Assembly (NCBI GenBank): GCA_022803075.1
Contig: JAFFTF010000004.1
Coordinates: 62,001-126,000 of the forward strand
DNA from: Micrococcales bacterium 31B
GTDB lineage: Bacteria; Actinomycetota; Actinomycetes; Actinomycetales; Dermabacteraceae
Length of the DNA stretch: 64,000 nucleotides
Reading direction: 5' to 3'
Below the pieces are notes generated by a model, which searched no databases, had not been told where the DNA came from, and was given only the letters and a program-made list of their open reading frames with translations. This document shows positions 27,654 to 61,385 of the stretch, in pieces; the stretch's first letter is position 1; each line of letters begins with the position of its first letter. A program made the position numbers and the translations under genes.

Positions 27654-27659
27654 GCCCGG

Positions 27660-28277: not shown

Positions 28278-28291
28278 GATGTCTCCTTGGA

Positions 28292-29809: not shown

Positions 29810-29813
29810 ATCG

Positions 29814-30218: not shown

Positions 30219-30223
30219 CGGCC

Positions 30224-30361
30224 TTACGCCGAGATTTCGGCGCGACCCTTGCGACGGCGAGCGGCCAGGATGGCGCGGCCGGCACGGGTGCTCATGCGCA
30301 GGCGGAAGCCATGAGTCTTCGCACGGCGGCGGTTGTTAGGCTGAAAGGTCCGCTTAGACAC
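30224..30361 (-). CDS. rpmH: Ribosomal protein L34
   Basis: A 45-residue protein, [20 protein letters not shown] at the start and [13 protein letters not shown] at the end, the full normal length for L34. A longer in-frame extension upstream is not conserved. The GTG start at 30361 has TTGGAGA nine bases upstream. It is the first gene of the rpmH-rnpA-yidD-yidC block, divergent from dnaA. Confidence 0.97.
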
Positions 30362-35327: not shown

Positions 35328-35385
35328 ACATTATCTGTGAAAATAAATTATCAGCAACAGCTAGCCAGGTGGAGGTCAAAACATC

Positions 35386-36021: not shown

Positions 36022-36365
36022 GCCGCAGGACACGTCGACCACCGCTGCTTTGGAGAGATTCGAATATCGGCTGAATCGTCACAGAAGCGATTTTTCTGCC
36101 CAAAAATGTTGGCTCACTCTCACGGGTCTCTGAAACTCGCTGAAAAGGCCGTTTACATGCCGCGCAGCGCGCGAAGAAGAGGGACCACTCCAGGTAGAAT
36201 TAGTGAGTTGAACCTTGCGTCGCAAAGTGGCACCCGCACAGCGGGGTCAGGACGGTTCGCACGACTCCTTAGTCGTGCGTTACTCGGGGTACACCGCGAC
36301 GTCTCGCCGGGGGCGAGTATCGCGTCGATTTGAACGCAGATTTACCTAGAGGAGTTGGTCGGCCA
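36022..36365. other. dciA-gyrB spacer
   Basis: About 340 bp with no gene. It must contain the gyrB promoter; TAGAAT at 36195 is a possible -10 but no matching -35 was found. Nothing else recognisable is seen. Confidence 0.5.
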
Positions 36366-38363: not shown

Positions 38364-38452
38364 AAATGCAGTCAAAGAATCAACTTTTGCAGTACAAATG
38401 ATTACTTTTGAAGCATTACGATATTGAGAATTGCAAGTAAGGACACCATCAA

Positions 38453-41149: not shown

Positions 41150-41151
41150 GC

Positions 41152-41703
41152 ATGAGTTCATCGACGGGCACCCTCGCATCCGATTCGAACCGTAAGCAAC
41201 CCACGGGCAAGTCCTCTGGCGCTGCCAAGGCTCCGGCTCCGGCCTCGAAAGCGAAGGCTGCCACCGACAAGTCTGTTGCCGCAGAGTCTGCCAACGTGAA
41301 GCCTGCCGCAGCCAAGCCCGTCGCACCCAAGGTGAAGGTGGAGCCTCGTCGAATCCGATTGGTGCTGTCGCGTGTCGATCCGTGGTCGGTCATGAAACTG
41401 TCATTCCTACTGTCTGTGGTGTTGGGTATTGCCACGGTGGTCGCGGTTGCCTTCGTGTACTCGGTGCTCAACGGCATGGGTGTTTTCAACTCGGTGCAGG
41501 AGTTCATCAGCAACGTCGTCGGTAGCACGAGTGAGTTCTCGATTCTTGGCTATGTTGAGTTCAGCAAGGTGATCTCTTTCGCTGTGATTGTCGCAGTAGT
41601 GAACGTGTTAATCATCACGGCGCTCTCCACGATCGGTTCGCTCTGTTACAACATTGCGGCGGCTCTCTTGGGTGGTCTGCACGTGACGCTGACCGACGAC
41701 TAA
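41152..41703 (+). CDS. DUF3566 membrane protein
   Basis: A 183-residue protein with an Ala/Lys/Pro-rich cytoplasmic first 60 residues and two membrane segments (about 80-105, LSFLLSVVLGIATVVAVAFV; about 135-165, VISFAVIVAVVNVLIITALS). RRIRLVLSRVDPWSVMKLSF is the DUF3566 signature. The family is found almost only behind gyrA in actinobacteria; no firm molecular function is known to me. Its ATG is 2 bases after the gyrA stop, so they are co-translated. Confidence 0.93.
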   Translation: MSSSTGTLASDSNRKQPTGKSSGAAKAPAPASKAKAATDKSVAAESANVKPAAAKPVAPKVKVEPRRIRLVLSRVDPWSVMKLSFLLSVVLGIATVVAVAFVYSVLNGMGVFNSVQEFISNVVGSTSEFSILGYVEFSKVISFAVIVAVVNVLIITALSTIGSLCYNIAAALLGGLHVTLTDD

Positions 41704-44369: not shown

Positions 44370-46259
44370 TTACTTCGCGGGGGCGACGAACACACCGTCG
44401 AAGAACGCCGCGAGCGAATCCGTGCCGTCGAGGGGCAGGATGTGCGCGACGTACTGGTCCGGGCGAACCACGACGATGGCGCCGTCACGCGAGATGTTGC
44501 GAGCCTCGAAGATATCGTCGGCGGGGTCGACCGCGTAGATCTTTTCGTAGTCGAACACCTGGTAGGGGCCGACGCGGGGGCGGAACGCCGCGGGCACCGT
44601 GTTGATGTTGACGTCGATGTGCGGCGCCTGGTAGATGACCTTGGTGTCGACGTAGACGTCTTGATTGGCGCCCTCGGGGCGGTACTTCACGAGCGGTGAG
44701 GCCGCGTCGTCGTTCAGCCAGGCCGCGAGAGTGGCCGTAGCCGAGCCCTCGTTCAGGCCGTCCTGGCCGGCGAAGACGTAGATGCGCCATTTGCCATCCG
44801 CACGCGCATGATGGCCGAGCTGTACGGGCACACCGTCGCAGACTCGCATGACGGGTCGCGAGTGGAACCGCTTGCCGAGGGTGAAGCCCGCGGCGAGGTC
44901 TTGCTGCGGGTCGCCCGCGACGATCATGGACGGCACGTACTCGGTCATGAATCCGGCGGGGAACTCGGCGGTCTGCACGTAGAAGCGCTCGACCTCCTCG
45001 GGGTCGCTGAGCTGTTCGGGCTTGGCGGCCATGAGGCTCGACCACTGCTTGTCGAAGTCGATCAGGTTCTGCGCAATGACCTGGCGTTCGGCCGAGTACG
45101 TGGCGAGCAGTTCTTCGGGGGCGCGGCCCGAGAGCACGTGACCGAGCTTCCAGCCCAGGTTGAAGCCATCCTGCATCGACACGTTCATGCCCTGGCCGGC
45201 CTTGGCGCTGTGCGTGTGGCACGCGTCGCCCATGATGAAGACGCGGGGCTTGCGGCCGGTCGCGGCGTCGGCGTCGTCGAAGCTGTCGGTCACGCGGTGA
45301 CCCACTTCGTAGACGCTGCGCCACGCAACGTGACGCACCTGAACGGTGTAGGGGTGCAAGATCTGGTTGGCTCGCGCCTCGACCTCTTCTTGAGTGGTCT
45401 TTCGGACGCTGCCCGAATCGTCGGGCGAGACCTCACCGAGGTCGACGTACATGCGGAAAAGGTGATTACCTTCGCGCGGGATGTGCAGGATCGAGCCGCC
45501 ATCGTTCGACTGGATCGCGCACTTGCGGCGAATGTCGGGGAAGTCGGTGTCGGCGAGCACGTCCATCACGCCCCAGGCATGAAACGCCTGGTCGCCCTGG
45601 AGTTTGCGGCCAATGGATTCGCGCACCCGGGAGCGGGCGCCGTCGCCACCGACAACATACTTGGCGTTGACGATGCGCTCTGTGCCTGCGTCATCGCCTA
45701 CGGTGCGCTTGAGCGTGACCGCGATGGGGTATTCCTGGGTATCGTCGCGGGTCAGCGTGACGAACTCCCAGCCGTAATCGGGCTTGTTGCGGGCGGGAGA
45801 GTTCGCCATGAACTCCAGGAAGTAATCCTGCACGCGGGCCTGGTTCACGATCAGGTGAGGCAACTCACTAATGTTGGCCGGGTCGTCGGGGGCGACTGCG
45901 GTGCGGACGATGTTCTTGGGATTGTTGACGTCGGGCTTCCAGAACGCCATTTCGGTGATCTGGTAGGCCTCTTCGGTGATGCGCTTGGCGAAGCCAAACG
46001 CCTGAAAGGTCTCGACGCTGCGGGCCTGAATACCGTCGGCTTGGCCGACCTCTAGGCGGCCGCCGCGGCGCTCCACGGCGCGCGTCGTGAACTGCGGAAA
46101 CTGCGACAACTGGGCGGCCAGCATGATTCCTGCTGGGCCGGTGCCGACGATGAGCACGTCGACGTTGTCGGGAAGGTTCTCGGGACGGTCGATGCCTACG
46201 CCTGCGGCGGGCTCCACACGGGGGTCGCCGGAAACATAGCCGAAGTGGTGAAATTGCAC
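44370..46259 (-). CDS. FAD-dependent aromatic hydroxylase (3-hydroxybenzoate 4-monooxygenase/phenol 2-monooxygenase family)
   Basis: A 629-residue group A flavin monooxygenase. It has the FAD motif VDVLIVGTGPAGIMLAAQLS (about 33-52), the DG motif YVVGGDGARSRVRESIG, the GD motif FIMGDACHTHSAKAGQGMN, and the C-terminal thioredoxin-fold domain of the phenol hydroxylase group. The start (FHHFGYVSGDPR) and GRLEVGQADGIQARSVETFQ resemble 3-hydroxybenzoate 4-monooxygenases, which make protocatechuate. The exact substrate is unproven. The GTG start has GAGGAG eight bases upstream. Two copies of the cluster operator lie about 80-110 bases upstream. Confidence 0.85.
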   Translation of the reverse strand: MQFHHFGYVSGDPRVEPAAGVGIDRPENLPDNVDVLIVGTGPAGIMLAAQLSQFPQFTTRAVERRGGRLEVGQADGIQARSVETFQAFGFAKRITEEAYQITEMAFWKPDVNNPKNIVRTAVAPDDPANISELPHLIVNQARVQDYFLEFMANSPARNKPDYGWEFVTLTRDDTQEYPIAVTLKRTVGDDAGTERIVNAKYVVGGDGARSRVRESIGRKLQGDQAFHAWGVMDVLADTDFPDIRRKCAIQSNDGGSILHIPREGNHLFRMYVDLGEVSPDDSGSVRKTTQEEVEARANQILHPYTVQVRHVAWRSVYEVGHRVTDSFDDADAATGRKPRVFIMGDACHTHSAKAGQGMNVSMQDGFNLGWKLGHVLSGRAPEELLATYSAERQVIAQNLIDFDKQWSSLMAAKPEQLSDPEEVERFYVQTAEFPAGFMTEYVPSMIVAGDPQQDLAAGFTLGKRFHSRPVMRVCDGVPVQLGHHARADGKWRIYVFAGQDGLNEGSATATLAAWLNDDAASPLVKYRPEGANQDVYVDTKVIYQAPHIDVNINTVPAAFRPRVGPYQVFDYEKIYAVDPADDIFEARNISRDGAIVVVRPDQYVAHILPLDGTDSLAAFFDGVFVAPAK

Positions 46260-46370: not shown

Positions 46371-46529
46371 TTTTCGCCTCCTGTGGGATACCATGGTGTA
46401 GTCCGGCAATGTTGCTGAGAGTTTGCTTCACACCCACAGCCGATGCCCGAAAAAGGGGCATGCGCCATGCACCCGCATGAGCGAGTCACATATGGAATCC
46501 CCCTTCCCTCCACAGTGGATTGGATGCAT

Positions 46530-48191
46530 ATGCCTACCGTCACCCACCATGTTGCCCACGCACTCTCCCAGCACGTCGAACACGTCTTCGGCCTCATGGG
46601 CAACGGCAACGCTCACTTTCTCGACGCCCTCCTGCGCGAAACCGACGTCGCCTTCACGGCCGTCCGCCACGAGGCCGGCGCCGTGGTCGCCGCCGACGCT
46701 TACTTCCGCGTTAGCGGCAAGATAGCCGCCGCCTCGACCACCTACGGAGCGGGCTTCACCAACACCCTCACCGCTCTCGCCGAGTCGGCACAGGCGCGCG
46801 TTCCCCTCGTTCTCATCGTCGGGGACGAGCCCACCTCGGGCCCTCGCTCGTGGGACGTCGACCAGATCGCCCTGGCCTCGGCCGTCGGTGCCCGCACCTA
46901 CACGGTGGGCCGCCTCGACGCCGCCGCCACCACCGTGATCGCCATCGAACACGCGCTTTCGTACCGCGTGCCCGTGGTCCTCGCGATTCCCTACGACATG
47001 CCCAAGCGTGACGCGGGCGAACTTCCCCAACTCGCCGACCTGCAGCTGCCCCAGCCTGCACCCCTGAGCGTCTACCAGCAGACGGCCATCACGCGCGTGG
47101 CTAAGGCCCTCGCGGCCGCGGAACGCCCCGTAATGCTGGCCGGCCGCGGCGCCCACCTCTCGGGTGCGGGGGCCGAACTCGGCGCCCTGGCCACCCACAC
47201 GGGTGCCCTCACGGCCTCGTCGGCCCTGGCTCGCGGCATCTTCCCTGAAACCCAGTACGACCTCGGCATCACGGGTGGATTCGGCGCCGAGGGTGCCATG
47301 GAACTCATCCACAGCGCCGACGTCGCGCTCGTCTTCGGAGCCTCGCTGAACCAGTTCACGATGCGCTTCGGCGGCCTCTTCGGCCCCGACACGCTCGTGG
47401 TCCAGATTGACGCGGCACCCAACGCCACCAACGCGCGCGTCAATGAATTTTTGCAGGGCGACGCGCGCACCATCGCCGCCGCGCTCGTGGAGGCGCTGCG
47501 CGCCGAACAGCCGGACGCCACGTCGCCGGGTTGGCGCGAAGGCGTGGACCTGGCGTCCGCCCGGGTCTACGAGGCCGGCGACGACCTGGCACCCGATGGC
47601 CGCCTCGACCCCCGCTCGGCCGCCGTCAAGATCGGTGAGTTGCTGCCAGAAGACCGCGTCGTGGTCAGCGACGGAGGCCATTTCATTGGCTGGGCCAATA
47701 TGTACTGGCCGGTCAAGGAGCCGGGCCGCATGGTCATGGTGGGCACCGCCTACCAGTCGATCGGCCTCGGGTTCCCGAGCGTGCCGGGTGCCGCGGCGGC
47801 CGCGCCCGATTCGACCATCGTGCTGACCACGGGTGACGGCGGCGGCCTCATGGCCATTGCCGACCTCGAGAGCGCCGTGCGCACGGCCGGCGGCCGCGGC
47901 ATTTGCGTCGTGTGGAACGACGGCGCCTACAGCGCCGAAGTGAATCTGTATGGCCTGCAGGGCCTCGTGAAAGACCCGATGCTGATTCCCGTGGTCGACT
48001 TCGCCGCGATGGGAGCGGCGGTCGGCGCCGAAGGGCACGTGATCCGCACGCTCGCAGACCTCGACGTGCTGCGCGAGTGGGCCGCCAAGCCCGTCGCAGA
48101 GCGCCAGTACCTGCTGCTTGACCTGCGGGTTTCGGGTGACGTGATCGCTCCGTACCAGCACGAGATCATCGCCATCAACTCGGGCAAGTAG
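46530..48191 (+). CDS. Thiamine-diphosphate enzyme, benzoylformate decarboxylase-like
   Basis: About 553 residues in the three-domain ThDP fold. The catalytic Glu is in FTAVRHEAGAVVAADAY and the ThDP/Mg motif is GDGGGLMAIADLES ending with VVWNDGAYSAE. The family spans benzoylformate and phenylpyruvate decarboxylases and acetolactate synthase-like enzymes; the aromatic neighbourhood favours decarboxylation of an aryl 2-oxo acid. ATG 46530 (MPTVTHH) suits family N-termini. In-frame ATG 46467 with AAGGGG upstream is an alternative that would add 21 residues. It is divergent from the flavin hydroxylase across the paired operators. Confidence 0.83.
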   Translation: MPTVTHHVAHALSQHVEHVFGLMGNGNAHFLDALLRETDVAFTAVRHEAGAVVAADAYFRVSGKIAAASTTYGAGFTNTLTALAESAQARVPLVLIVGDEPTSGPRSWDVDQIALASAVGARTYTVGRLDAAATTVIAIEHALSYRVPVVLAIPYDMPKRDAGELPQLADLQLPQPAPLSVYQQTAITRVAKALAAAERPVMLAGRGAHLSGAGAELGALATHTGALTASSALARGIFPETQYDLGITGGFGAEGAMELIHSADVALVFGASLNQFTMRFGGLFGPDTLVVQIDAAPNATNARVNEFLQGDARTIAAALVEALRAEQPDATSPGWREGVDLASARVYEAGDDLAPDGRLDPRSAAVKIGELLPEDRVVVSDGGHFIGWANMYWPVKEPGRMVMVGTAYQSIGLGFPSVPGAAAAAPDSTIVLTTGDGGGLMAIADLESAVRTAGGRGICVVWNDGAYSAEVNLYGLQGLVKDPMLIPVVDFAAMGAAVGAEGHVIRTLADLDVLREWAAKPVAERQYLLLDLRVSGDVIAPYQHEIIAINSGK

Positions 48192-48210
48192 CCGTAGCCA
48201 GACGTTCAAC

Positions 48211-48240
48211 GGGCCACCACGACAACTCGTGGTGGCCCGC
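48211..48240. terminator. Convergent 13-bp hairpin
   Basis: CGGGCCACCACGA (48211-48223) and its exact complement (48228-48240) enclose CAAC. It stands between the ends of the decarboxylase (+) and MoaF-like (-) genes and can serve both. Confidence 0.82.
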
Positions 48241-48251
48241 TTTCGGGTGTC

Positions 48252-49127
48252 CTAGGCGTCCGGGTAGGTCGTCTCGCTCAGCAGCGTGAGGCGAGAATCG
48301 AACGGCAAGTGAACGGGGTCGAGCGTCGAGTTCTCCCAGCAGAACATGCGGCCGATGGAGCGCTGCTGCTGAAAGTCGATCACGAGCACGCTCTCGACGG
48401 GCATGACCGTCTCCGTCCAGAAGTAGATGACCAGGTCATCGCCGAGCTCGAAGGCCTTCGTCTGTTCGACATCAGCGAGGCCCTTCTCGCCGCCACGCAC
48501 GCACTGCCAGGCCACCGTGCTCGCGTTGAGGTACACGTGTTCGTAGGCCTCGGTGGCGCTGTAGCGGTAGAGCACCCGCTTGCCGACGAGGTAGTCGGTG
48601 CGCTCGCGCGGCTCAATCTCGCCGCTGCCAACGAGACGCCCCGAGATGAAGTCGGTTTGCATGCGCACCTGGCCGTTGCGGCCCACGAAATAACTGTCGG
48701 CCGTGGTGACGCGGCCATCCGCGAGATTCACAATCATGACGAGTGCGTGGGTCTTCACGCTTTCGCCTTTTTGAAACTCGATGTAAAAAATTCCCTCACG
48801 CACTTCGATCGCTCGGTACGTGTGCGTGCCCGTGTCTCCGCTGCCCTCGCCCGCGGTGATCAGCCACGTAAGACTCGTCGCACTGGCGAACGTATGTCGA
48901 ATCGTGATGCCGCCCTCATAGTTCACGTCAAGGGTCTGGCCGACGAGGGAGTCGCTCGCGGGCAGGCTCGGCTCCCCGAAGCCTTCGAGCATTTCAGAGA
49001 CGTCCGGCCAGGTCTCGATCGGCACGAACTCTTGGCTGTCAACGGTGACAAACGCAGTCGATGTGGCAGGTCGGGACGATATTTCGGACGCGGGGGTGGT
49101 CGGGTTGGTCGTAGTCGTTGGGGTCAT
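48252..49127 (-). CDS. MoaF-like protein
   Basis: A 291-residue protein with two lipocalin-like halves characteristic of MoaF: the first around DVNYEGGITIRHTFASATSL, the second around GKRVLYRYSATEAYEHVYLN and MPVESVLVIDF. Despite the common database name about molybdopterin, MoaF was defined in the tyramine/monoamine regulon of Klebsiella; its biochemical role is unclear. The ATG at 49127 has AGGAG seven bases upstream; an earlier in-frame start has no such site. It is divergent from a TetR regulator across an inverted-repeat operator. Confidence 0.82.
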   Translation of the reverse strand: MTPTTTTNPTTPASEISSRPATSTAFVTVDSQEFVPIETWPDVSEMLEGFGEPSLPASDSLVGQTLDVNYEGGITIRHTFASATSLTWLITAGEGSGDTGTHTYRAIEVREGIFYIEFQKGESVKTHALVMIVNLADGRVTTADSYFVGRNGQVRMQTDFISGRLVGSGEIEPRERTDYLVGKRVLYRYSATEAYEHVYLNASTVAWQCVRGGEKGLADVEQTKAFELGDDLVIYFWTETVMPVESVLVIDFQQQRSIGRMFCWENSTLDPVHLPFDSRLTLLSETTYPDA

Positions 49128-49200
49128 GGTGGTCTCCTGTGACGGGGCGGCGGGCCACGGTGCCCACCGCAAAACTCTGCAAGTGCTGAATGGCTCCCAT

Positions 49201-50018: not shown

Positions 50019-53015
50019 CTACGCGGTCTGCACCGCCGTGCGACCCGCCACGTACTCCGCGAGCACGCCCTCGATCCACTCCACGGCGGCCTCGCCGGCC
50101 GGCACTGGACCGCCCGCATTGTGGCGACCATACTCACCCACCCGCACGGCCCCGCACGCCGCCAACGTCTCGTCCACGATCTCACTGCCCCGCGAATAGG
50201 TGCGGGCATAACTGGTGTCGCCCATGCCAAACACCGCATACCGCACCGCCGCAAGATCGGGCTGAGCTGCCACGAGTCGCGCATGCGCGGGCCGCACCGC
50301 GGTCGGCAATTCACCGTCGCCGTACGTGGAACACACCACCACATGTAGTCGTTGCGGCTCCAGCAGCGCGGCCTCGACCTCGGCAAGATCGCGCACCTCG
50401 ACCGCGGCCCGATCGCCCAGGGCCTGCGACAACTCCTCGCTGACCAGCTCGGCGCCGCCCGACTCGGTCCCAAACCACACCGTGAGCGGAAGATCGCCAC
50501 CGCCCCCGCCCGCCACGAGCGGCGTCACCTCGGGCAACTCGATGCTCGTGTCACGCGCGGCCGCAACCAGCGCGGCCCGAGTGCCCAACTTGGCACGCGT
50601 GCGTCCGGGAGCCGCCCCCAACGTCTCGCGCACGTCAATGCGCCGCCACCCGTCAAAGTCGGTCTCGTCCGGGTCGCCCGACCAGCCGGGAGCTCCCGAG
50701 CCCACCCGACCCGCCGCGGCGTCCTCGGTAATCAACCGCGCCAGCTCGCGTGCGTCGGTGCGCTGATCGGGAATCGTGCCGCGCGGACCTCTCCGCAACC
50801 ACCCCGCCGTATACAGGCCCGGCTCCACCCGGCCGCCCGCGTGGGCTCCTGGCACGACCGGCGAGTCGGGGTCCGCCGCGAAACCCACCGCCGTGATCAC
50901 ACTCGTCACGGGCAGCGACACGCTCTCGTGCCCGACCCGCGCGATCACGCTCGCGACGCGGCCCTGCGCACCGCCCTCGAACGCCTCGGGTGTAGCCCCA
51001 AACCACCAGTTCACCACGACGCGCGGGGCACCATCGGGGGCACCCTCCACCAGTTGACGCACGGCATCGATGCGGGCGTCCTTGCCGGGGGGCACGTCAT
51101 CGGGCGTCGCACCGACGAGGCCGGCGCGCACGACGTGCCGCACGCCCCGCAACCCCGCCAATTCGCGCACCATGACGGGGTCGAACTTGCAGGCCTCGGG
51201 CGTGCTGCGCGCCACGACGTGCACCGTCGCGAGGCTCGCGGTGAGCGCGTCGCGAGCGGTATCGGAGACATCGCTGCCCGCCAACTCGCTCACATCACGC
51301 GCGAGCAGGCGAATCACATCCATGGCCACATTGCCCGCGCCGATCACGGCCACGGTCTCACCCAGGTCACCAAGCGGCTCCTCGTCGGGGTGCGTGTTCA
51401 GCAGCCGCGTGACGCGACCCGCGCCCACGACCCCAGGGAGGTCGGCGCCGGGAACGGGCAACGCGGCGTCCGCATGCATGCCGGTCGCGAGCACGACCGC
51501 GTCATAAGTGGCGCGCAGGGCGTGCAGGCACGTGTGTTCGCCGAGCCGCGTCGACCCGCGAAAGCGCACGCCCTCGTGCGTGAAGAGCTTGTCGAATTGG
51601 CGCGCCACCGACTTCGTACCCTGGTGATCGGGTGCGACGCCCGAGCGAATCAGGCCAAACGGCGTGGGCTGCGCGTCGAACACTTCGAGCGTCGCGTGCG
51701 GCAGGGCGCGCCGCAGGGCCTGCGCCGTGAACAGGCCCGCGGGGCCCGCCCCGATGATGGCCACGCGCGGCGCCAGCACCTCCTCTCGCGCGCCCGTACC
51801 GGACGCCGCCGGCGCCGCGGTAGCCACGTCGTCCCACGTCACCGGCAGGCTGAGCATGCCTCGGAACACCCAGCCCCCCACCTCGGCGGGGCGCTCCGGC
51901 ACGGCGCGCAACCCGCGCAGCCGCGAGAACACGAGCGGCAGGGCCACCTCCGCGACCTCCGCGCGCGCCGCCCACGCGCCCAGGCACACGTGGACTCCCT
52001 TGCCAAATGCAAGGTGCGGCTTGACCTCGCGACGAATATTGAACGACTCGGCGTCGTCCCACACCGACTCGTCGCGGTTGGCGGAGAGCAGGCAGATGCC
52101 CAATTTGGACCCCGCGGGCAGTCGCACCCCCTCCAGCACCGTGTCGCGCTTGACCTGCCGCGAGTACAGGCCGATCGGGGCGACCCAGCGAATGGTCTCG
52201 TCGAAGGCGGCGTTCCACAGGCTCGGGTCCTCCTCGACCGCGGCCCGTTGCTCCGGATGCGTCAGCAGGGCCCACGTCGCTACGCCGAGCGCGTCGCGGG
52301 GCTCATTGAGGCCGCCGCCGATGGTCATCTTGACGTTGGCGCGAATGCTCTCGAGCGGCATGCGCTCACCCGGCTGGCTGAGCAGCGACGAGATGAGGGA
52401 GTTATCGGGGTGCTTCGCATGCCAGTCCAGCATCTCGTCGAGCGCTGCATCGACCTCGTCGAACGATCGCTTTCCCTCAGCCCACACGTGGGGATCGTTC
52501 GCGTAATTGCCAGTTGCATCAATCATCGTTTGCGACCAGCGCTGCAGGTCGGCCTGCGTCGAATTGTGCAGGCCAATCAGTTCGCGCAGGCTCTCCGCCG
52601 AGTAGGGGGCCGCGAAATCTGCGATGAAATCGGCGCCGGGGCCTTTCTCGATGAACTCCTCGAGATAGCGCTCGGCAGTGCGCTGGAACATCGACTTCCA
52701 CACTTTGTGCACGACGCCCGGGCGCAGCTCGGGCTGCCACTGCCGCCGCTCCACATAGTGTTCCGGATCATCGCGGCGCAGCATCGAATGCCCCATCGCA
52801 CGAATCATGAGTGAGCCCTCCTCATTTGCGGAGAACACCTGTTGATCGAGCTCGGTTTCGTGCACTGCGGCATACGTCGTAATGAGGTAGCGGCCCACCT
52901 GTGGCACCCAGTGCACGCCGCCCTCGGCGCGCAGGCGTTGATAGATGGGGAACGGATCGCGGTACAGATCGGGGATGCTCACCCAATCTGCGATAGGGGC
53001 TTCACGGGTTGTCAT
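50019..53015 (-). CDS. Self-sufficient cytochrome P450: P450, adrenodoxin-reductase-type FAD domain and flavodoxin in one chain
   Basis: A 998-residue protein. Residues 1-395 are a P450 with the ExxR pair (Glu273, Arg276) and heme ligand Cys344 in FGKGVHVCLG. The I-helix reads GGGLNEPRD (233-241) in place of the usual acid-Thr pair. Residues 415-770 match ferredoxin/adrenodoxin reductase: VAIIGAGPAGLFTAQALRRA, FGLIRSGVAPDHQGTKSV, the NADPH loop VAVIGAGNVAMDVIRLL and GWLRRGPRGTIPDQ. Residues 842-998 are flavodoxin-like (WFGTESGGAELVSEE, STYGDGELP, FGMGDTSYA). Electrons would flow NADPH-FAD-FMN-heme within one chain. ATG 53015 has AAGGAG seven bases upstream; a longer frame lacks it. The substrate is probably an aromatic compound, by context only. 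Confidence 0.92.
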   Translation of the reverse strand: MTTREAPIADWVSIPDLYRDPFPIYQRLRAEGGVHWVPQVGRYLITTYAAVHETELDQQVFSANEEGSLMIRAMGHSMLRRDDPEHYVERRQWQPELRPGVVHKVWKSMFQRTAERYLEEFIEKGPGADFIADFAAPYSAESLRELIGLHNSTQADLQRWSQTMIDATGNYANDPHVWAEGKRSFDEVDAALDEMLDWHAKHPDNSLISSLLSQPGERMPLESIRANVKMTIGGGLNEPRDALGVATWALLTHPEQRAAVEEDPSLWNAAFDETIRWVAPIGLYSRQVKRDTVLEGVRLPAGSKLGICLLSANRDESVWDDAESFNIRREVKPHLAFGKGVHVCLGAWAARAEVAEVALPLVFSRLRGLRAVPERPAEVGGWVFRGMLSLPVTWDDVATAAPAASGTGAREEVLAPRVAIIGAGPAGLFTAQALRRALPHATLEVFDAQPTPFGLIRSGVAPDHQGTKSVARQFDKLFTHEGVRFRGSTRLGEHTCLHALRATYDAVVLATGMHADAALPVPGADLPGVVGAGRVTRLLNTHPDEEPLGDLGETVAVIGAGNVAMDVIRLLARDVSELAGSDVSDTARDALTASLATVHVVARSTPEACKFDPVMVRELAGLRGVRHVVRAGLVGATPDDVPPGKDARIDAVRQLVEGAPDGAPRVVVNWWFGATPEAFEGGAQGRVASVIARVGHESVSLPVTSVITAVGFAADPDSPVVPGAHAGGRVEPGLYTAGWLRRGPRGTIPDQRTDARELARLITEDAAAGRVGSGAPGWSGDPDETDFDGWRRIDVRETLGAAPGRTRAKLGTRAALVAAARDTSIELPEVTPLVAGGGGGDLPLTVWFGTESGGAELVSEELSQALGDRAAVEVRDLAEVEAALLEPQRLHVVVCSTYGDGELPTAVRPAHARLVAAQPDLAAVRYAVFGMGDTSYARTYSRGSEIVDETLAACGAVRVGEYGRHNAGGPVPAGEAAVEWIEGVLAEYVAGRTAVQTA

Positions 53016-53178
53016 GGGGGTCTCCTTCGGTGGAAACGGGGTGGGGATGGTGCGTAGCAACGCAAGATGGCGCTGGGAGCGGACCCCGTGTGCGTCCAGA
53101 AAATTCAACACACCAATGTGGAGGACGCGAACCGCTCAAGCAGCGCAACTATCACTGACCCTACCAGCGTCTACAGCA

Positions 53179-53231: not shown

Positions 53232-54602
53232 TTACGCGATGCCGCGAATCGGACTCACTTGCTGCTCGGCTTCGTGATCGGGGCCGAGCGGGATGCCGCT
53301 ACGGTCCTTCAAGATCAGCGTCGCGATGATGCTGATGAGGACCACGCCGGCGAGGTACATCGAGATGCCCGAGGTGCCGCCCGTGTTCTTGAGAATCAAT
53401 TGGGCGACCGTGGGGGCAAAGGCGCCACCGAAGATCGCGCCGATGGCGTACGAGATTGAGACGCCCGAGAAGCGCACCGAGGCAGGGAAAAGTTCGGTGT
53501 AGAAGGCCGCCTGCGGTCCGTAGGTCAGGCCGAGGCCCACCGACGTGATGAGGAACGAGGCCGTGAGCGACGCGAAGGTGCCCTGGTTGACCAGCGGGAA
53601 CATCGTGAAGATGCCGACCAACAGTGCTACCCAGCCGATCAGGTAGGTGTTTCGACGCCCGATCTTGTCGGCCAAGTAGCCGCCCAGCCACGTGAACACG
53701 AACCAGCCGATGGCGCCGATGGCGACGGCCCAGAGTACGGGGCCGCGGTCCATTTTCAAGGCGCCTTCGGGGTTGGTGGCGTAGTTCTGCAAGAATCCGC
53801 CCGTTGTCATGTAGCCGACCGCGTTATTGCCCATGAACAGGCCGGCGGCGAGAAGAACCAGCAGGGGGTGCTTCTTCAGCAGCTGGATGATAGGCATCTT
53901 GGTCTGCTCGCTGCGCGCCGCGATCTCGGCGAACACGGGGCTTTCTTCGACGCGGCTACGGATGTAAATGCCGATGAAGATCATCACGATCGAGAGCAGG
54001 AACGGCACGCGCCAGCCCCACTGATTGAAGGCATCGCCGGGGGCGATGATGTTCATGACCGCGAGCACGCCCGAGGCGAGCAGCATGCCGAGCGGCACGC
54101 CGAGCTGCGGTGCGGCACCCATGATGCCGCGCTTGCCGTTGGGAGCGTGCTCGACGGCCATGAGGACTGCGCCGCCCCATTCACCGCCGGCCGAGATGCC
54201 CTGCACGATACGCAGGAAAATGAGGATCGCGGGGGCCGCGAGGCCGATCTGCGCCGTGGTGGGCAGCACACCGATGAGCGCGGTGGCGACGCCCATCATG
54301 ATGAGGGTCCACATGAGTACCACACGTCGACCAAACTTGTCGCCGAAATGGCCGGCCAGGAACGCGCCGAGGGGACGGAACAAGAAGCTGAGGCCAACGG
54401 TGAGGAACGAGAGGATCTGGGCGATGCCAGCGCCCGCGGGTTCGAAGAACACGTGGCTGAACACGAGGCCGGCCGCGAAGGCGTAGATAAAGAAGTCGTA
54501 CCACTCCACTGTGGTGCCGACGATCGTCGCGAAGGCTACGCGGCGATGTTCTGCAATGCTAGAGGCGCCCCCTGGTAGGGGGCTGGACTTGAGGTTCGAC
54601 AT
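53232..54602 (-). CDS. MFS transporter, metabolite:H+ symporter (ShiA/proline-betaine type)
   Basis: A 456-residue transporter with 12 membrane segments. The start AFATIVGTTVEWYDFFIYAF and GHFGDKFGRRVVLMWTLIMM are hallmarks of the metabolite:H+ symporter branch, which includes shikimate and aromatic-acid permeases; GRIVQGISAGGEWGG-like sequence (RIVQGISAGGEWGGAVLMAV) is also typical. It likely imports the aromatic substrate of the cluster. ATG 54602 has AGGAG five bases upstream. It is divergent from the FAH-RraA operon across the second operator pair. Confidence 0.9.
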   Translation of the reverse strand: MSNLKSSPLPGGASSIAEHRRVAFATIVGTTVEWYDFFIYAFAAGLVFSHVFFEPAGAGIAQILSFLTVGLSFLFRPLGAFLAGHFGDKFGRRVVLMWTLIMMGVATALIGVLPTTAQIGLAAPAILIFLRIVQGISAGGEWGGAVLMAVEHAPNGKRGIMGAAPQLGVPLGMLLASGVLAVMNIIAPGDAFNQWGWRVPFLLSIVMIFIGIYIRSRVEESPVFAEIAARSEQTKMPIIQLLKKHPLLVLLAAGLFMGNNAVGYMTTGGFLQNYATNPEGALKMDRGPVLWAVAIGAIGWFVFTWLGGYLADKIGRRNTYLIGWVALLVGIFTMFPLVNQGTFASLTASFLITSVGLGLTYGPQAAFYTELFPASVRFSGVSISYAIGAIFGGAFAPTVAQLILKNTGGTSGISMYLAGVVLISIIATLILKDRSGIPLGPDHEAEQQVSPIRGIA

Positions 54603-54651
54603 GGGCACTCCTATGTGTCATGCAGCAGATGCATCATTGCTGTCTGAGTAA

Positions 54652-54695: not shown

Positions 54696-54730
54696 CGTTA
54701 CGTTCCCAGACGATGACAAAGGAGTATCAC

Positions 54731-56272
54731 GTGGCGAACCCCGCGCAAACCCCCAGGTCGCAGGCCGATTCAGTCCCCGCTGACGAGATTACGAACGGAA
54801 CGGCACTGCAGCCCGGCAAGATCATCGCCGTACATCTGAGCTATGCATCGCGCGCCGCACAGCGCGGCCGCACCCCCGCCGCCCCCTCGTATTTCTTCAA
54901 GCCCACCAGTTCGGTGGCCGCGAGCGGCGCGACGGTCGAACGCCCCGCCGGCACCGAACTGCTGGCCTTCGAAGGTGAAATCGCCCTCGTCATCGGCAAG
55001 CCCGCCTACCAGGTCGCCCTCGCCGACGCGTGGGAGCACGTCGCCTACGTCACCGCAAGCAACGACTGGGGCCTTTACGACCTGCGCGCCAACGACAAGG
55101 GCTCTAACGTGCGCAACAAGGGCCGCGATGGGTTTACCCCCGTCGGCCCCCGCCTGATCGACGCGCGTAGCATCGACCCAGCCGCTCTGCGCATCCAGAC
55201 CTGGCTCAACGGCAACCTCGTGCAAGACGCCACCACCGACGAGCTGATCTTCCCCCTCGCCCAGTTCGTCGCTGACCTCTCGCAGCACTTCACGCTGAAC
55301 GAGGGCGACGTCATTCTGACCGGCACCCCCGCCGGCTCCTCCGTCGCGCAGCCCGGCGACACCGTCGAGGTGGAGGTTTCCGCCCCCACCGCCCCCGGCG
55401 CACCCACCTCGGGTCGACTCGTCAGCCACGTCACCGAGGGCACGGTCGCCTTTGACCCCACCGTGGGCTCGCTGCCGAGCGTCAACGACCTGCAGCGCGA
55501 AGAGGCTTGGGGCTCGCGTGAGGCAGCTGGCCTCGCCGACACCAGTGGTCCCACGCTCGACCCCGCCCTGCGCGCCAAACTGCTCGAAGCTCCCGTGGCG
55601 GGGCTCTCCCAAGAGTTGCGCAAACGTGGGCTGAACGGAATCTTTATCGACGGCGTCCGCCCCACCCGCCCCGGCCAAAAGCTCGTGGGTACCGCCAAGA
55701 CCCTGCGCTTCGTCGCCCTGCGCGAAGACCTCTTCAAGAGCCACGGCGGCGGCTACAACGCCCAAAAGCGCTGTTTCGACTCAATTCGCCCCGGCGAAGT
55801 GGTGGTCATCGAGGCCCGTGGTGAGCGCAGCACCGGCACGCTCGGTGACGTCCTCGCCCTGCGCGCCATCAACCGCGGTGCGGCCGGCGTCGTGACCGAC
55901 GGTGGAGTCCGTGACTACGAGATGGTGGCGGGCTTTGACCTGCCCGTCTTCACCCAGGGTGCGCACCCCGCCGTGCTCGGCCGTAAGCACGTGCCGTGGG
56001 AACACGACACCACCATCACGTGCGGTGGCGCCACCGTGCAGCCCGGTGACATCATCGTCGGCGACGTCGACGGCGTCATCGTGATTCCGCCCGCCCTCGT
56101 GGAAGAGGTCGTCAACGCGGCCCTGGCACAAGAAGAAGAGGACGCCTGGGTGGCTGAGCAGGTCGAGGCAGGCCACCCGGTCGATGGCCTGTTCCCCATG
56201 AACGCCGAATGGCGTGCCCGCTATGAGGCGGCCAAGGCCGGTGCAGCGGGCACCACCTCGGAGGGCGCCTGA
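54731..56272 (+). CDS. FAH-family hydrolase/isomerase fused to an RraA-type aldolase/decarboxylase domain
   Basis: A 513-residue fusion. Residues 25-235 are a fumarylacetoacetate hydrolase fold as in HpaG (metal-binding FEGEIALVIG, SNDWGLYDLR, GDVILTGTPAGSS). Residues 290-490 are an RraA/HMG-aldolase fold with the signature GDVLALRAINRGAAGVVTDG followed by GVRD. HpaG decarboxylates and isomerises 5-oxo-pent-3-ene-tricarboxylate in homoprotocatechuate breakdown; RraA-type enzymes decarboxylate or cleave 2-oxo acids. The split of work is unknown. GTG 54731 has AAAGGAG six bases upstream and is preferred to ATG 54713. It is the first gene of the operon. Confidence 0.85.
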   Translation: MANPAQTPRSQADSVPADEITNGTALQPGKIIAVHLSYASRAAQRGRTPAAPSYFFKPTSSVAASGATVERPAGTELLAFEGEIALVIGKPAYQVALADAWEHVAYVTASNDWGLYDLRANDKGSNVRNKGRDGFTPVGPRLIDARSIDPAALRIQTWLNGNLVQDATTDELIFPLAQFVADLSQHFTLNEGDVILTGTPAGSSVAQPGDTVEVEVSAPTAPGAPTSGRLVSHVTEGTVAFDPTVGSLPSVNDLQREEAWGSREAAGLADTSGPTLDPALRAKLLEAPVAGLSQELRKRGLNGIFIDGVRPTRPGQKLVGTAKTLRFVALREDLFKSHGGGYNAQKRCFDSIRPGEVVVIEARGERSTGTLGDVLALRAINRGAAGVVTDGGVRDYEMVAGFDLPVFTQGAHPAVLGRKHVPWEHDTTITCGGATVQPGDIIVGDVDGVIVIPPALVEEVVNAALAQEEEDAWVAEQVEAGHPVDGLFPMNAEWRARYEAAKAGAAGTTSEGA

Positions 56273-56273
56273 T

Positions 56274-56984
56274 ATGTCGCCCCAGAGCAAGTCTGAACTC
56301 GCCTACGCGTGGATCCGCGATCGCATCGTGAACCACGAGTTCGCGGGGGGCTACAAGTTGGTACTCGCGACCATTGCCACGACCCTCGACATGAGCGTCG
56401 TGCCGGTGCGCGAGGCCGTGCGTCGCCTCGAAGCCGAAGGCCTCGTCGAGTATGAGAAGAATGTCGGCGCCCGCGTGGCCCTCGCCGATGAGCGCGAGTA
56501 CGTGCATTCGATGCAGACGCTCGGCGTCGTCGAAGGCGTCGCGACCTCGCTCTCGGCCCCGTTTCTTTCTGCGGAACAGATCACCGAGGCACGCGAAATC
56601 AACCGCCGCCTCGAAGACTTGCTCGACGACTTTGACCCGTTTAGGTTTACGCAGGTCAATCAAGATTTTCACAAGGTTTTGTTCCTGCCCTGCCCGAATC
56701 CGCAGATCCTCGATCTGGTGGATCGGGGCTGGTCGAAGCTCGCGGCCATCCGGTCGTCGACCTTTACCTTCGTGCCGTTCCGCGCGCACGAATCGGTGCG
56801 AGAACACGAGGAGATCCTCACGCTCATCGAGCGAGGGGCTGACCCCATCGACATCGAGCAGGCGGCGCGCCAGCACCGTTGGCGCACGATGAACGCCTAC
56901 CTCGCCATGCGCCACGCCTGGACGCCGACGGGTGAGGGCACCAATGAACACCGCAAGGAACCCACGCCACTCGGCATCAAGTAA
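56274..56984 (+). CDS. GntR-family regulator (FCD type)
   Basis: A 236-residue regulator. It has an N-terminal winged helix-turn-helix (AYAWIRDRIVNHEFAGGYKL, MSVVPVREAVRRLEAEGLV, about 10-66) and a C-terminal all-helical FCD domain that senses a metabolite (FTQVNQDFHKVLF, REHEEILTLIERG). The start follows the FAH-RraA stop by one base. FCD regulators bind short palindromes, so it is the best candidate for ATCGTATACGAT. Being inside the operon it probably represses its own synthesis until a pathway compound binds. Confidence 0.88.
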   Translation: MSPQSKSELAYAWIRDRIVNHEFAGGYKLVLATIATTLDMSVVPVREAVRRLEAEGLVEYEKNVGARVALADEREYVHSMQTLGVVEGVATSLSAPFLSAEQITEAREINRRLEDLLDDFDPFRFTQVNQDFHKVLFLPCPNPQILDLVDRGWSKLAAIRSSTFTFVPFRAHESVREHEEILTLIERGADPIDIEQAARQHRWRTMNAYLAMRHAWTPTGEGTNEHRKEPTPLGIK

Positions 56985-57061: not shown

Positions 57062-58561
57062 ATGACTTCGAACCACACCGCGCCAGCCGATCTGCCCGAT
57101 CGCATTCGCCACTACATCAACGGCGAGTTTGTTGACTCGATCGACGGCGACACGTTCGACGTGCTCGACCCCGTCACCAACGAAACCTATGTGCAGGCCT
57201 CGGCAGGCAAGAAGGCTGACATCGAGAGAGCCGTCGCCGCCGCCAAGCTTGCCTTCGACGAGGGCCCGTGGCCTCGCATGCTGCCGCGCGAACGTTCGCG
57301 CGTGCTGCACCGCATCGCCGACATCGTTGAATCGCGCGACGAGCGCCTCGCCGAACTCGAATCGTTCGACTCGGGTCTGCCCATTAAGCAGGCCCTCGGC
57401 CAGGCCCGCAGGGCCGCCGAGAACTTCCGCTTCTTTGCCGATCTGATCGTCGCGCAGGCCGACGACACCTTCAAGGTGCCCGGCCGCCAGATCAACTACG
57501 TGAACCGCAAGCCCATCGGCGTTGCCGGTCTCATCACGCCCTGGAACACGCCCTTCATGCTCGAAAGTTGGAAGCTCGGCCCGGCCCTCGCCACGGGTAA
57601 CACGGTCGTGCTGAAGCCCGCCGAGTTCACTCCGCTTTCGGCATCGCTGTGGGCTGGCATCTTCGAGGAGGCAGGCCTGCCGCAGGGCGTGTTCAACCTC
57701 GTCAACGGCCTCGGCGAAGACGCGGGCGACGCCCTCGTCAAGCACCCCGACGTGCCCCTCATTTCGTTCACCGGCGAGAGCCGCACCGGCCAGATCATCT
57801 TCGGCAACGCGGCCCCGTTCCTGAAGGGCCTGTCGATGGAACTCGGCGGCAAGAGCCCCGCCATCGTGTTCGACGATGCCGATCTCGACGTAGCCATCGA
57901 CGCGACCATCTTCGGCGTGTTCTCGCTGAACGGCGAGCGCTGCACCGCAGGCAGCCGCATCCTCGTGCAGCGCGGCGTGTACGAAGAGTTCGTCACCCGT
58001 TACGCCGAGCAGGCCAAGCGCGTCAAGGTGGGTCTGCCCAGCGATCCCACCACCGAGGTCGGCGCCCTCGTGCACCCCGAGCACTATGACAAGGTCATGA
58101 GCTACGTCGAAATCGGCAAGGGCGAGGGCCGGCTGGTAGCTGGCGGCGGGCGTCCGGAAGGATTCGATACGGGCAACTTCGTCGCCCCGACCGTATTCGC
58201 CGACGTGAAGCCCGACGCGCGCATCTTCCAGGAGGAAATCTTCGGGCCCGTCGTCGCGATCACGCCGTTCGACACCGACGAAGAGGGTCTTGCCCTGGCC
58301 AACAACACGCGATACGGCCTCGCCGCCTACGTGTGGACCAACGACCTCAAGCGCGCCCACAACATTGCCCAGAACATCGAGGCCGGCATGGTCTGGCTTA
58401 ACTCGAACAACGTGCGCGACCTGCGCACGCCGTTCGGCGGCGTGAAGGCCTCCGGCCTGGGCCACGAGGGTGGCTACCGCTCGATCGACTTCTACACCGA
58501 CCAGCAGGCCGTTCACATCACGCTCGGTGCGGTGCACAACCCCACCTTCGGCAAGCAGTAA
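57062..58561 (+). CDS. hpaE: 5-carboxymethyl-2-hydroxymuconic-semialdehyde dehydrogenase
   Basis: A 499-residue NAD-dependent aldehyde dehydrogenase. The conserved ITPWNTPFMLESWKLGPALA, catalytic Glu in MELGGKSP and catalytic Cys in FSLNGERCTAGSRI are present. The C-terminal FGGVKASGLGHEGGYRSIDF is typical for the HpaE/muconic-semialdehyde group. With the extradiol dioxygenase next door it should oxidise the ring-cleavage product of homoprotocatechuate. GAGGAGG lies directly before the ATG. It is co-oriented with hpaD, hpaH and hpaI. Confidence 0.9.
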   Translation: MTSNHTAPADLPDRIRHYINGEFVDSIDGDTFDVLDPVTNETYVQASAGKKADIERAVAAAKLAFDEGPWPRMLPRERSRVLHRIADIVESRDERLAELESFDSGLPIKQALGQARRAAENFRFFADLIVAQADDTFKVPGRQINYVNRKPIGVAGLITPWNTPFMLESWKLGPALATGNTVVLKPAEFTPLSASLWAGIFEEAGLPQGVFNLVNGLGEDAGDALVKHPDVPLISFTGESRTGQIIFGNAAPFLKGLSMELGGKSPAIVFDDADLDVAIDATIFGVFSLNGERCTAGSRILVQRGVYEEFVTRYAEQAKRVKVGLPSDPTTEVGALVHPEHYDKVMSYVEIGKGEGRLVAGGGRPEGFDTGNFVAPTVFADVKPDARIFQEEIFGPVVAITPFDTDEEGLALANNTRYGLAAYVWTNDLKRAHNIAQNIEAGMVWLNSNNVRDLRTPFGGVKASGLGHEGGYRSIDFYTDQQAVHITLGAVHNPTFGKQ

Positions 58562-58633: not shown

Positions 58634-59776
58634 ATGACCGCAGATCGCACCCCCACCTCGTCGGGCTTCTTCGTCTCGACCGAGGTGAACGTCAACACCG
58701 ACAACCCCGTACCCACGCCCAAGGCCCCCGCACCCGATGTGCTGCGTTGCGCCTACATGGAAATAGTGGTCACCGACCTCGCCAAGTCGCGCGAGTTCTA
58801 CGTCGACGTGCTCGACCTGGTCGTCACGGCTGAGGACGAAAACTACGTCTACCTGCGCTCGATGGAAGAGTTCATCCACCACAACCTCGTGCTGCGCAAG
58901 GGCCCCGTGGCCGCCGTCGCCGCATTCTCTTACCGCGTTCGCACCCCCGAGGACGTCGACAAGGCCGAGGCCTACTTCCAGGAACTCGGCTGCCGCACGG
59001 AACGCCGCAAGGACGGCTTCGTCAAGGGCATTGGCGATTCGGTGCGCGTCGAAGACCCCCTGGGCTTCCCCTACGAGTTCTTCTACGAGGTCGAGCACGT
59101 CGAGCGTCTCGCCTGGCGCTACGACCTCTACACGCCCGGCGCGCTCGTGCGCCTCGACCACTTCAACCAGGTCACGCCCGACGTGCCCCGCGGCGTGAAG
59201 TACATGGCTGACCTCGGGTTCCGCACCACGGAGGACATCCAGGACGAGAACGGCACCGTCTATGCAGCCTGGATGCGCCGCAAGCCCACCGTGCACGACA
59301 CCGCCATGACCGGTGGCGATGGCCCCCGCATGCACCACGTGGCCTTCGCGACGCACGAGAAGCACAACATCCTCGCGATCTGCGACAAGCTCGGCGCCCT
59401 GCGCCGCTCCGACGCGATCGAGCGTGGCCCCGGCCGCCACGGTGTGTCGAACGCGTTCTACCTGTACTTGCGCGATCCCGACGGTCACCGCGTCGAGATC
59501 TACACGCAGGACTACTACACGGGCGACCCCGACAACCCGGTCGTCACGTGGGACGTTCACGACAACCAGCGCCGCGACTGGTGGGGCACCCCCGTTGTGC
59601 CCAGCTGGTACACCGATGCGTCGCTCGTGCTCGACCTCGACGGCAACCCGCAGCCCCTGGTCAAGCGCACCGACGACAGCGAAATGGCCGTCACCATCGG
59701 AGCCGATGGCTTCAGCTACACGCGCGCCGACGACGACCAGCCCATGCCCGAATACAAGCTGGGCAACCAGCTCTAA
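58634..59776 (+). CDS. hpaD: 3,4-dihydroxyphenylacetate 2,3-dioxygenase (homoprotocatechuate dioxygenase)
   Basis: A 380-residue type I extradiol dioxygenase with two vicinal-oxygen-chelate domains. Metal ligands His176 (VRLDHFNQV), His235 (MHHVAF) and Glu288 (HRVEIYTQDYY) lie at a constant offset of +21 from His155, His214 and Glu267 known for the Brevibacterium fuscum enzyme, so this is a close family member. It opens the ring of homoprotocatechuate next to a hydroxyl group. The N-terminal tail is about 15-20 residues longer. AAGGA precedes the ATG. The 72-bp gap after hpaE has an imperfect GC-rich hairpin (58576-58605). Confidence 0.93.
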   Translation: MTADRTPTSSGFFVSTEVNVNTDNPVPTPKAPAPDVLRCAYMEIVVTDLAKSREFYVDVLDLVVTAEDENYVYLRSMEEFIHHNLVLRKGPVAAVAAFSYRVRTPEDVDKAEAYFQELGCRTERRKDGFVKGIGDSVRVEDPLGFPYEFFYEVEHVERLAWRYDLYTPGALVRLDHFNQVTPDVPRGVKYMADLGFRTTEDIQDENGTVYAAWMRRKPTVHDTAMTGGDGPRMHHVAFATHEKHNILAICDKLGALRRSDAIERGPGRHGVSNAFYLYLRDPDGHRVEIYTQDYYTGDPDNPVVTWDVHDNQRRDWWGTPVVPSWYTDASLVLDLDGNPQPLVKRTDDSEMAVTIGADGFSYTRADDDQPMPEYKLGNQL

Positions 59777-59784
59777 GGAGCCCC

Positions 59785-60570
59785 ATGCTCTCCCCAGAAA
59801 CCATCGCACAGCTCGCCGAAGAACTCGCGCAAGCGGATCGTGAGCACACGGTCATTCCGCGTATCACCGCCCGCTACCCCGAGGCCACGGTCGAGGATTC
59901 GTACGCCATCCAGGGCGTCTGGCGCGATCGCATGATCGCCGCCGGGCGCACCCTGGTGGGTCGCAAGATCGGGCTCACCTCCAAGGCGATGCAGCAGGCC
60001 ACGGGCATCACCGAACCCGATTACGGCGTCATGTTCGACGACACCGTGCACCCCTCGGGCGTCGTGATCGACACCTCGAAGTACTCCAACGTGCGTATCG
60101 AGGTGGAACTCGCGTTCGTGCTGGCCAAGCCCCTCGAGGGGCCCGACTGCACGCTCGACGATGTGCTCGCCGCCGTTGACTACGTGGTGCCCGCGCTCGA
60201 AGTGCTGAACTCGCACATCGAACTCGAGGGCCGCACGATTGTCGACACGATCAGCGACAACGCGGCCTACGGCGCGATGGTCCTGGGTGAGACGAAGAAG
60301 CGGGTCGACGAGGTTGACCTGCGGTGGGTTCCCGGCGTGCTCTCCAAGAATGGCGAGATCGAGGAGACCGGCGTCGCCGCCGGTGTGCTCGGCCACCCCG
60401 CCACGGGTGTCGCCTGGCTCGCGAACAAGTTTCACCAGCACGGCGCGCGCCTCGAAGCGGGGGAGATCATCCTCGCCGGGTCGTTTACGCGGCCCATGTG
60501 GGTCGCCGCGGGCGACGAGGTGCTGTGCGACTTCGGGCCGATGGGGACGATCGCGTGTCGGTTCGAGTAG
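59785..60570 (+). CDS. hpaH: 2-oxo-hept-3-ene-1,7-dioate hydratase
   Basis: A 261-residue hydratase of the FAH-related HpcG/MhpD family. Characteristic parts are [46 protein letters not shown] (metal-binding Glu pair) and [11 protein letters not shown]. It adds water to the linear dienoate and so prepares it for aldol cleavage. ATG 59785 has AAGGAG seven bases upstream and lies 8 bases behind hpaD. The end overlaps the next start by 16 bases. Confidence 0.92.
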
Positions 60571-61385
60571 GCAACGGCTACCCGGGCCTGGGTGGGCCGA
60601 ACACGCTGCGGGCCGCCCTGGCGTCCGCCTCTCGCCCCCTCTATGGCGGCTGGGTCTGCTCGGGCTCGCCCGTCATGGCGGAGGTGATGGCAGGTTCGGG
60701 GCTCGACTGGCTCCTCATCGACATGGAGCACACGCCGAACTCGCTCGAATCGGTGGTCGTGCAGTTGCATGCGATCTCGGGGTATCCCGTGGTGCCGGTC
60801 GTGCGCGTGCCGGTGAACGACCCCGTGATCATCAAGCAGGTGCTCGACATCGGTGCTCAAACCATTCTGGTGCCGATGGTCAACAACGCTGACGACGCGA
60901 AGGCAGCGGCGGCCGCCGTGCAGTACCCTCCGCTCGGGGTGCGTGGCGTGGGCAGTGCGCTGGCTCGATCGGCGCGCTGGAACCGCACGCCCAACTATCT
61001 GACGGAAGCCTCGCAGTACGTGAGTGTATACGTGCAGGTAGAAACCTCGGACGCCGTGGCCAACGCTGGCGCGATTGCCGCCGTTGACGGCGTGGACGGG
61101 GTGTTCGTGGGCCCCAGCGACCTGGCCGCCTCGATGGGTGTGTTGGGCCAGCAGGGTCACCCGGACGTGGTCGCAGCAGTGGAGTCGACGTTCGCGGCGG
61201 TGCGCGCCGCGGGCAAGCCCGTGGGCGTGAATGCGTTCGTGGCGGAGTCTGCGAAGGCCTATGCCGCGGCGGGGGCCTCGTTCGTGGCGGTGGGTGCCGA
61301 TGTGGCGCTCGCGGCGCGGGCGTCGGAGGCCCTCGCGAAGGAGTTTATTCCGGCCGACGCGGCGGACGTGAACGCTTCGTACTAG
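60555..61385 (+). CDS. hpaI: 4-hydroxy-2-oxo-heptane-1,7-dioate aldolase
   Basis: A 276-residue class II pyruvate aldolase of the HpaI/HpcH family, which splits the last intermediate to pyruvate and succinate semialdehyde. It shows DWLLIDMEHTPNS, the QTILVPMVNNADDA segment, YPPLGVRGVG and VQVETSDAVANAGAIAAVDG, followed by VFVGPSDLAASMG with metal ligands at the conserved Glu and Asp. The GTG start overlaps the end of hpaH. It ends the operon, before a strong terminator. Confidence 0.92.
   Translation: MSVRVGNGYPGLGGPNTLRAALASASRPLYGGWVCSGSPVMAEVMAGSGLDWLLIDMEHTPNSLESVVVQLHAISGYPVVPVVRVPVNDPVIIKQVLDIGAQTILVPMVNNADDAKAAAAAVQYPPLGVRGVGSALARSARWNRTPNYLTEASQYVSVYVQVETSDAVANAGAIAAVDGVDGVFVGPSDLAASMGVLGQQGHPDVVAAVESTFAAVRAAGKPVGVNAFVAESAKAYAAAGASFVAVGADVALAARASEALAKEFIPADAADVNASY

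Follow-up and report, generated by a model that had tools for sequence, protein, structure and literature searches.

The scheme of cytochrome P450 classes I–X includes P450–flavodoxin (VI), P450–reductase–[2Fe-2S] (VII), and P450–CPR (VIII) proteins (PMC11173547). P450 BM3/CYP102 (class VIII) is self-sufficient, with FAD and FMN serving the heme within one chain in the order P450–FMN–FAD, and its FAD domain has the FNR/CPR fold. P450RhF/CYP116B (class VII), likewise self-sufficient and with an N-terminal heme domain, uses an FMN/NADH/[2Fe-2S] phthalate-oxygenase-type reductase and has no flavodoxin. In the RDX-degrading XplA/XplB system of Rhodococcus (class VI), XplA consists of an N-terminal flavodoxin joined to the P450, while XplB is a separate protein. 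The flavodoxin-driven P450cin system (class III) comprises three separate proteins: a P450 of a different family from the one described below, cindoxin, and cindoxin reductase. GcoA and SyoA are aromatic O-demethylase P450s; turnover of the demethylase GcoA uses NADH via GcoB, a separate [2Fe-2S]-FAD-NADH protein (PMC6021390). CYP1232A24 of Arthrobacter sp. is an unfused chain of 405 aa in the PDB (6g71), and its gene cluster contains, according to a review, a flavodoxin and a flavodoxin reductase, reported as separate proteins (PMC9687028, citing Klenk et al. 2019).

The window, a 64,000-nucleotide stretch of contig JAFFTF010000004.1 of Micrococcales bacterium 31B, carries a P450, an FAD reductase, and a flavodoxin in a single open reading frame on the minus strand, which starts with ATG at 53015, stops at 50019, and has no internal stops. 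A promoter scan at this gene gave nothing decisive. The gene and its parts are as follows:

50019..53015, minus strand: P450–FAD reductase–flavodoxin fusion gene, complete, 998 aa, kept at full length in 55 named genomes
53022..53027, minus strand: Shine-Dalgarno sequence AAGGAG, six bases ahead of the fusion-gene ATG
51831..53015, minus strand: P450 heme domain, CYP1232 type, aa 1–395 (6g71, 566 bits, 61% identity; Foldseek TMt 0.92)
52293..52319, minus strand: I-helix motif GGGLNEPRD, aa 233–241, with Glu238 retained and Thr replaced by Pro239
52188..52199, minus strand: EXXR motif of the P450 domain, E273–R276
51984..51986, minus strand: heme-ligand Cys344, invariant
51771..51830, minus strand: linker 1, aa 396–415, Ala/Gly/Ser-rich (pLDDT below 50 at 401–411; 11–73 aa in relatives)
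50532..51770, minus strand: FAD/NAD(P)H reductase domain, about aa 416–828, adrenodoxin-reductase/FprA fold, XplB-type
50490..50531, minus strand: linker 2, about aa 829–842 (pLDDT below 50 at 836–839)
50022..50489, minus strand: flavodoxin (FMN) domain, aa 843–998 (core about 843–987), best PDB match cindoxin (4oxx)

The Pfam matches follow one another in the order p450 (2.3e-15), Pyr_redox_2 (2.6e-12), and Flavodoxin_1 (7.9e-18), bearing out the domain order proposed in the initial annotation. In PDB searches, CYP1232A24 matched the first 398 residues, FprA and adrenodoxin reductase matched the middle part, and cindoxin matched the C-terminal part; among the matches listed, no solved chain spans the FAD and flavodoxin parts in such a pairing. 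The Rossmann motifs for FAD and NAD(P) are intact, as are the FMN loops. With its heme-ligand cysteine and EXXR motif, the P450 domain is predicted to be a functional heme-thiolate domain, and the fold together with the two Rossmann motifs places the FAD domain in the adrenodoxin reductase/FprA-fold family. An AF2 model built from 34 sequences had a mean pLDDT of 84, with dips below 50 in the two linkers, and Foldseek searches with this model returned 6g71, FprA (TMt 0.78), adrenodoxin reductase, GcoA, and SyoA. The protein is thus modelled as three folded domains joined by disordered linkers, the mutual arrangement of the domains not being fixed by a model with a pTM of 0.60.

The domains and motifs predict a chain of FAD reductase and FMN flavodoxin such as that of class III, but this chain lies in one open reading frame conserved as a fusion, rather than in three separate proteins. 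The C-terminal position of the flavodoxin and the fused reductase set the protein apart from class VI, the absence of a Fer2 domain in Pfam searches from class VII, and an FAD domain that matches FprA/adrenodoxin reductase rather than FNR/CPR, followed by the FMN domain, from class VIII. The layout therefore differs from those of BM3, RhF, and XplA, as had been claimed, and the objection that a characterised class might already have it found no support, since the scheme of classes I–X includes no class with an adrenodoxin-reductase-fold FAD domain followed by a flavodoxin (PMC11173547).

Identity between the P450 domain and CYP1232A24 was 61.4% over the heme domain. By the usual limits of more than 40% for a family and more than 55% for a subfamily, the P450 part would belong to CYP1232, subfamily A, an official name being the business of the nomenclature committee. 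On the P450 tree, CYP1232A24 and the fused proteins form a clade with support of 100/98, outside of which fall the stand-alone P450s of Arthrobacter/Paeniglutamicibacter and others; the fused proteins lie on one side of a branch whose support (73/77) is not decisive. The closest solved P450s are CYP1232A24, GcoA, and SyoA, all of them aryl-ether demethylases, the latter two being about 30% identical. Kinship of the P450 domain with XplA was ruled out, the identity being 26% over 361 aa. One more remote P450 relative (L073:8064-10253, 34% identical) is fused to an NAD-binding and [2Fe-2S] (Fer2) reductase in a CYP116B-like layout, so that the P450 group has undergone fusion at least twice, independently.

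The I-helix had been described as lacking the usual acid–threonine pair, and unusual oxygen chemistry had been proposed on this ground. The threonine is indeed replaced by proline at position 239 in every fused protein examined, but the acid, Glu238, is retained. One could suppose that, without the threonine, catalysis proceeds chiefly via the peroxide shunt, or that the P450 is a reductive enzyme like XplA, which has lost its Asp/Glu-Thr motif (PMC8081977). However, the GGxNEP I-helix with its EP pair is common to all examined fused proteins and to the stand-alone ferredoxin-dependent CYP1232-like P450s, CYP1232A24 is alike in this helix, and the counterpart in GcoA, which runs on NADH (PMC6021390), is QEP. 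The EP motif is therefore ancestral to the group, and it provides no evidence for new chemistry in the fusion protein; moreover, a peroxygenase would have no use for a dedicated two-flavin chain. We consider altered oxygen chemistry highly improbable. The odd I-helix does not by itself point to it, and special I-helix chemistry was set aside, since the motif is family-wide.

On the FAD-domain tree, the fused members group together (87/84) and belong with the stand-alone flavodoxin reductases, XplB among them, which are split from housekeeping FprA at 100/100; on the flavodoxin tree the flavodoxins of the fused proteins form one group (95 SH-aLRT) placed with XplB-type pairs. The phylogeny of each domain had been proposed earlier as a check; the idea that XplA/XplB partners had been rejoined in another order holds for the flavin partners and fails for the P450. 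The FAD domain also shares with XplB a (G/A)RS motif with a single arginine, while FprA has RR; with serine in place of the second arginine, a preference for NADPH is uncertain, and both NADH and NADPH are possible. XplB reportedly works with NADH (PMC8081977).

Genes for [2Fe-2S] ferredoxins or putidaredoxin-type reductases were absent at all 60 fused loci inspected for them. Every stand-alone CYP1232-like relative examined has an adjacent [2Fe-2S] ferredoxin gene after the P450 gene and, within the stretch available, all but one also have a putidaredoxin-reductase-type gene there, so that the ferredoxin-type partners and the fused flavin partners are mutually exclusive at the loci examined. 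The trees suggest the passage from a ferredoxin-served P450 to a flavodoxin-served one, as reported for CYP1232A24, and then to a fused one; a swap of ferredoxin for flavodoxin followed by fusion would be the simplest history. In many bacteria, genes for an FAD reductase and a flavodoxin sit side by side. XplB-type pairs with no P450 annotated nearby were seen at L076 (a Klebsiella plasmid), L077, and L078, enterobacterial plasmids being included.

A scan of genome contigs with a single protein query gave no match, and an alignment query recovered the fused loci. This alignment-based scan of GTDB contigs found intact fused loci with the same domain order in 55 named genomes, which answers the domain-architecture check proposed for this protein; several of the assemblies are single-contig or complete, and the full-length relatives are roughly 51–69% identical to the window protein. 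The taxa are mainly Micrococcales and include Agrococcus, Leucobacter, Microbacterium, Brevibacterium, Gulosibacter, Citricoccus, Kocuria, Tersicoccus, Enteractinococcus, Yaniella, Subtercola, Labedella, Enemella, Arthrobacter RIT-PI-e, Pseudoglutamicibacter, and two Halomonas. In sets overlapping these named genomes, the fusion was present in 8 genomes of the order, in about 11 of 300 genomes from the family to which G277 belongs, and in 15 of the 57 species within a single genus (a count of match rows, the records agreeing with Brevibacterium).

These data bear on the suspicion that a sequencing or assembly error had merged separate P450, reductase, and flavodoxin genes. Such genes do exist: on a plasmid of R. 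pyridinivorans P23 they lie in the same order and nearly touch, the P450 being unrelated. But the same fusion recurs in the 55 named genomes, single-contig assemblies among them, the fused proteins form one group in each domain tree, and the domains are conserved while the linkers vary freely in length. An artefact is therefore ruled out for practical purposes, and this possible refutation of the initial annotation did not hold.

Some copies of the fused gene are disrupted. Those of Leucobacter massiliensis and Brevibacterium renqingii (L124 and L128) have frame changes in the P450–FAD linker, L154 has one within the FAD domain, and L145 lacks approximately residues 174–785; gene fission, decay, or sequencing errors such as indels could account for them. 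The copies of Halomonas EAR18 (L100) and SpR1 (L126) appear to have moved from actinobacteria into Gammaproteobacteria.

The following genes lie around the fusion gene in the window:

44370..46259, minus strand: phenol 2-monooxygenase-type flavoprotein hydroxylase, PRK08294-type (NF006144, 992 bits, cutoff 560)
53232..54608, minus strand: MFS transporter of the metabolite/H+ symporter family, a conserved neighbour, probable aromatic-acid uptake
54713..56272, plus strand: FAA-hydrolase/RraA fusion, HpaG-like, divergent (NF009399, 824 bits, cutoff 444)
56214..56984, plus strand: GntR/FCD regulator
57062..58561, plus strand: hpaE, 5-carboxymethyl-2-hydroxymuconate semialdehyde dehydrogenase (TIGR02299, 657 bits, cutoff 638)
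58634..59776, plus strand: hpaD, homoprotocatechuate 2,3-dioxygenase (TIGR02295, 434 bits, cutoff 321)
59773..60570, plus strand: hpaH-like hydratase (best family TIGR02312, 334 bits, under the cutoff of 351.5)
60567..61385, plus strand: hpaI-like aldolase (best family TIGR02311, 308 bits, under the cutoff of 369)

With hpaD and hpaE adjacent and above the NCBIfam cutoffs, the genes directly past the MFS transporter make up a homoprotocatechuate (hpa) meta-cleavage cluster, in which the FAA-hydrolase/RraA-like fusion occupies the place where hpaG would be expected. Between the hydroxylase gene and the fusion gene (46443–49172) lie genes for a thiamine-diphosphate (ThDP) enzyme and a MoaF-domain protein, and the ThDP enzyme recurs near some of the Microbacterium and Labedella fused genes. 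The gene order and lengths at 24366–41703 resemble those of parB, parA, rsmG, jag, yidC, dnaA, dnaN, recF, gyrB, and gyrA; judging by order and length alone, the aromatic cluster seems to sit near the chromosome origin. The region at about 19500–24300 has few convincing coding frames and is flanked by denser genes.

Homoprotocatechuate is usually produced from 4-hydroxyphenylacetate by HpaB, and no HpaB was found in the window's own genome. The hpa neighbourhood, the absence of HpaB from this genome, and the kinship with aryl-ether demethylases therefore make a self-sufficient methoxyphenylacetate O-demethylase the best reading of the fusion protein. We regard it as likely that a CYP1232-type aromatic O-demethylase with its own XplB-like flavodoxin reductase and C-terminal flavodoxin demethylates methoxyphenylacetates to homoprotocatechuate. 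The earlier guess of phenolic or aryl-ether substrates pointed in this direction but was too broad, the neighbourhood narrowing it to methoxylated phenylacetates feeding homoprotocatechuate cleavage. CYP1232A24/F1 reportedly produce 3,4-dihydroxyphenylacetate by demethylation of 3,4-dimethoxyphenylacetate and homovanillate. The genome also encodes a mycothiol-dependent formaldehyde dehydrogenase, which we count as weak support for demethylation.

The domain content predicts self-sufficient turnover driven by NAD(P)H. Going by domain identity, electrons would follow the route NAD(P)H, FAD, FMN, and heme: NAD(P)H would reduce the FAD of the reductase domain, single electrons would pass to the FMN of the flavodoxin domain, and the flavodoxin, made mobile by the flexible linkers, would swing over to the proximal side of the P450 and reduce the heme. 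The heme would then activate O2, and the methyl group of the aryl methyl ether would be hydroxylated and released as formaldehyde; such O-demethylation is probable from kinship and gene neighbourhood. Homovanillate, 3,4-dimethoxyphenylacetate, or similar methoxylated phenylacetic acids are the likely substrates, and the putative product, homoprotocatechuate, would feed the adjacent hpa genes.

The same self-sufficient enzyme could instead use a different aromatic acid, methoxylated (4-methoxyphenylacetate, for example) or unsubstituted, or carry out a ring hydroxylation, with the neighbouring flavoprotein hydroxylase making homoprotocatechuate. This hydroxylase is a possible second source of homoprotocatechuate, and a homolog 67% identical to it also lies beside the fused copy of Halomonas EAR18. 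At most fused loci, those of Leucobacter and Brevibacterium, hpa genes are absent within 10 kb, hpaD being found within this distance in 14 of the 55 other intact loci. However, the closest solved P450s are demethylases without exception, and the association of hpa genes with the fused gene is repeated in more than one phylum: the transferred gene of Halomonas EAR18 has hpaD, hpaE, and an HpaG-like gene as neighbours. The hpa cluster of EAR18 differs from the window's, its hpaD and hpaE being only 44–50% identical. Overall, a different substrate appears rather unlikely, and demethylation of methoxyphenylacetates is preferred.

The P450 subfamily and the redox-partner type are already known; the natural fusion and its order are new. 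A search of open-access full text, with subscription papers mostly outside its scope, yielded no earlier description of a natural fusion of a P450 with an adrenodoxin-reductase-type FAD domain and a flavodoxin. We think it fairly probable that these proteins represent a separate undescribed class of self-sufficient P450s, in which an adrenodoxin-reductase-fold flavodoxin reductase and a flavodoxin follow the P450, the FAD part is unrelated to the CPR/BM3 module, and the flavin domains have the opposite order; it would have arisen once, via the exchange of ferredoxin for flavodoxin within a single P450 family, and later reached other Micrococcales as well as Halomonas.

The fusion provides a natural flavin-reductase module of the adrenodoxin-reductase fold that is tied to a P450 and maintained in at least 55 genomes. 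Its FAD reductase–flavodoxin part may act as a new drop-in redox partner, and, if the proposed function is true, applied work on lignin-derived methoxyaromatics would benefit from a one-protein aryl O-demethylase that requires no added partners. For the bacteria themselves, the predicted role is probably the removal of methyl groups from plant-derived aromatic acids.
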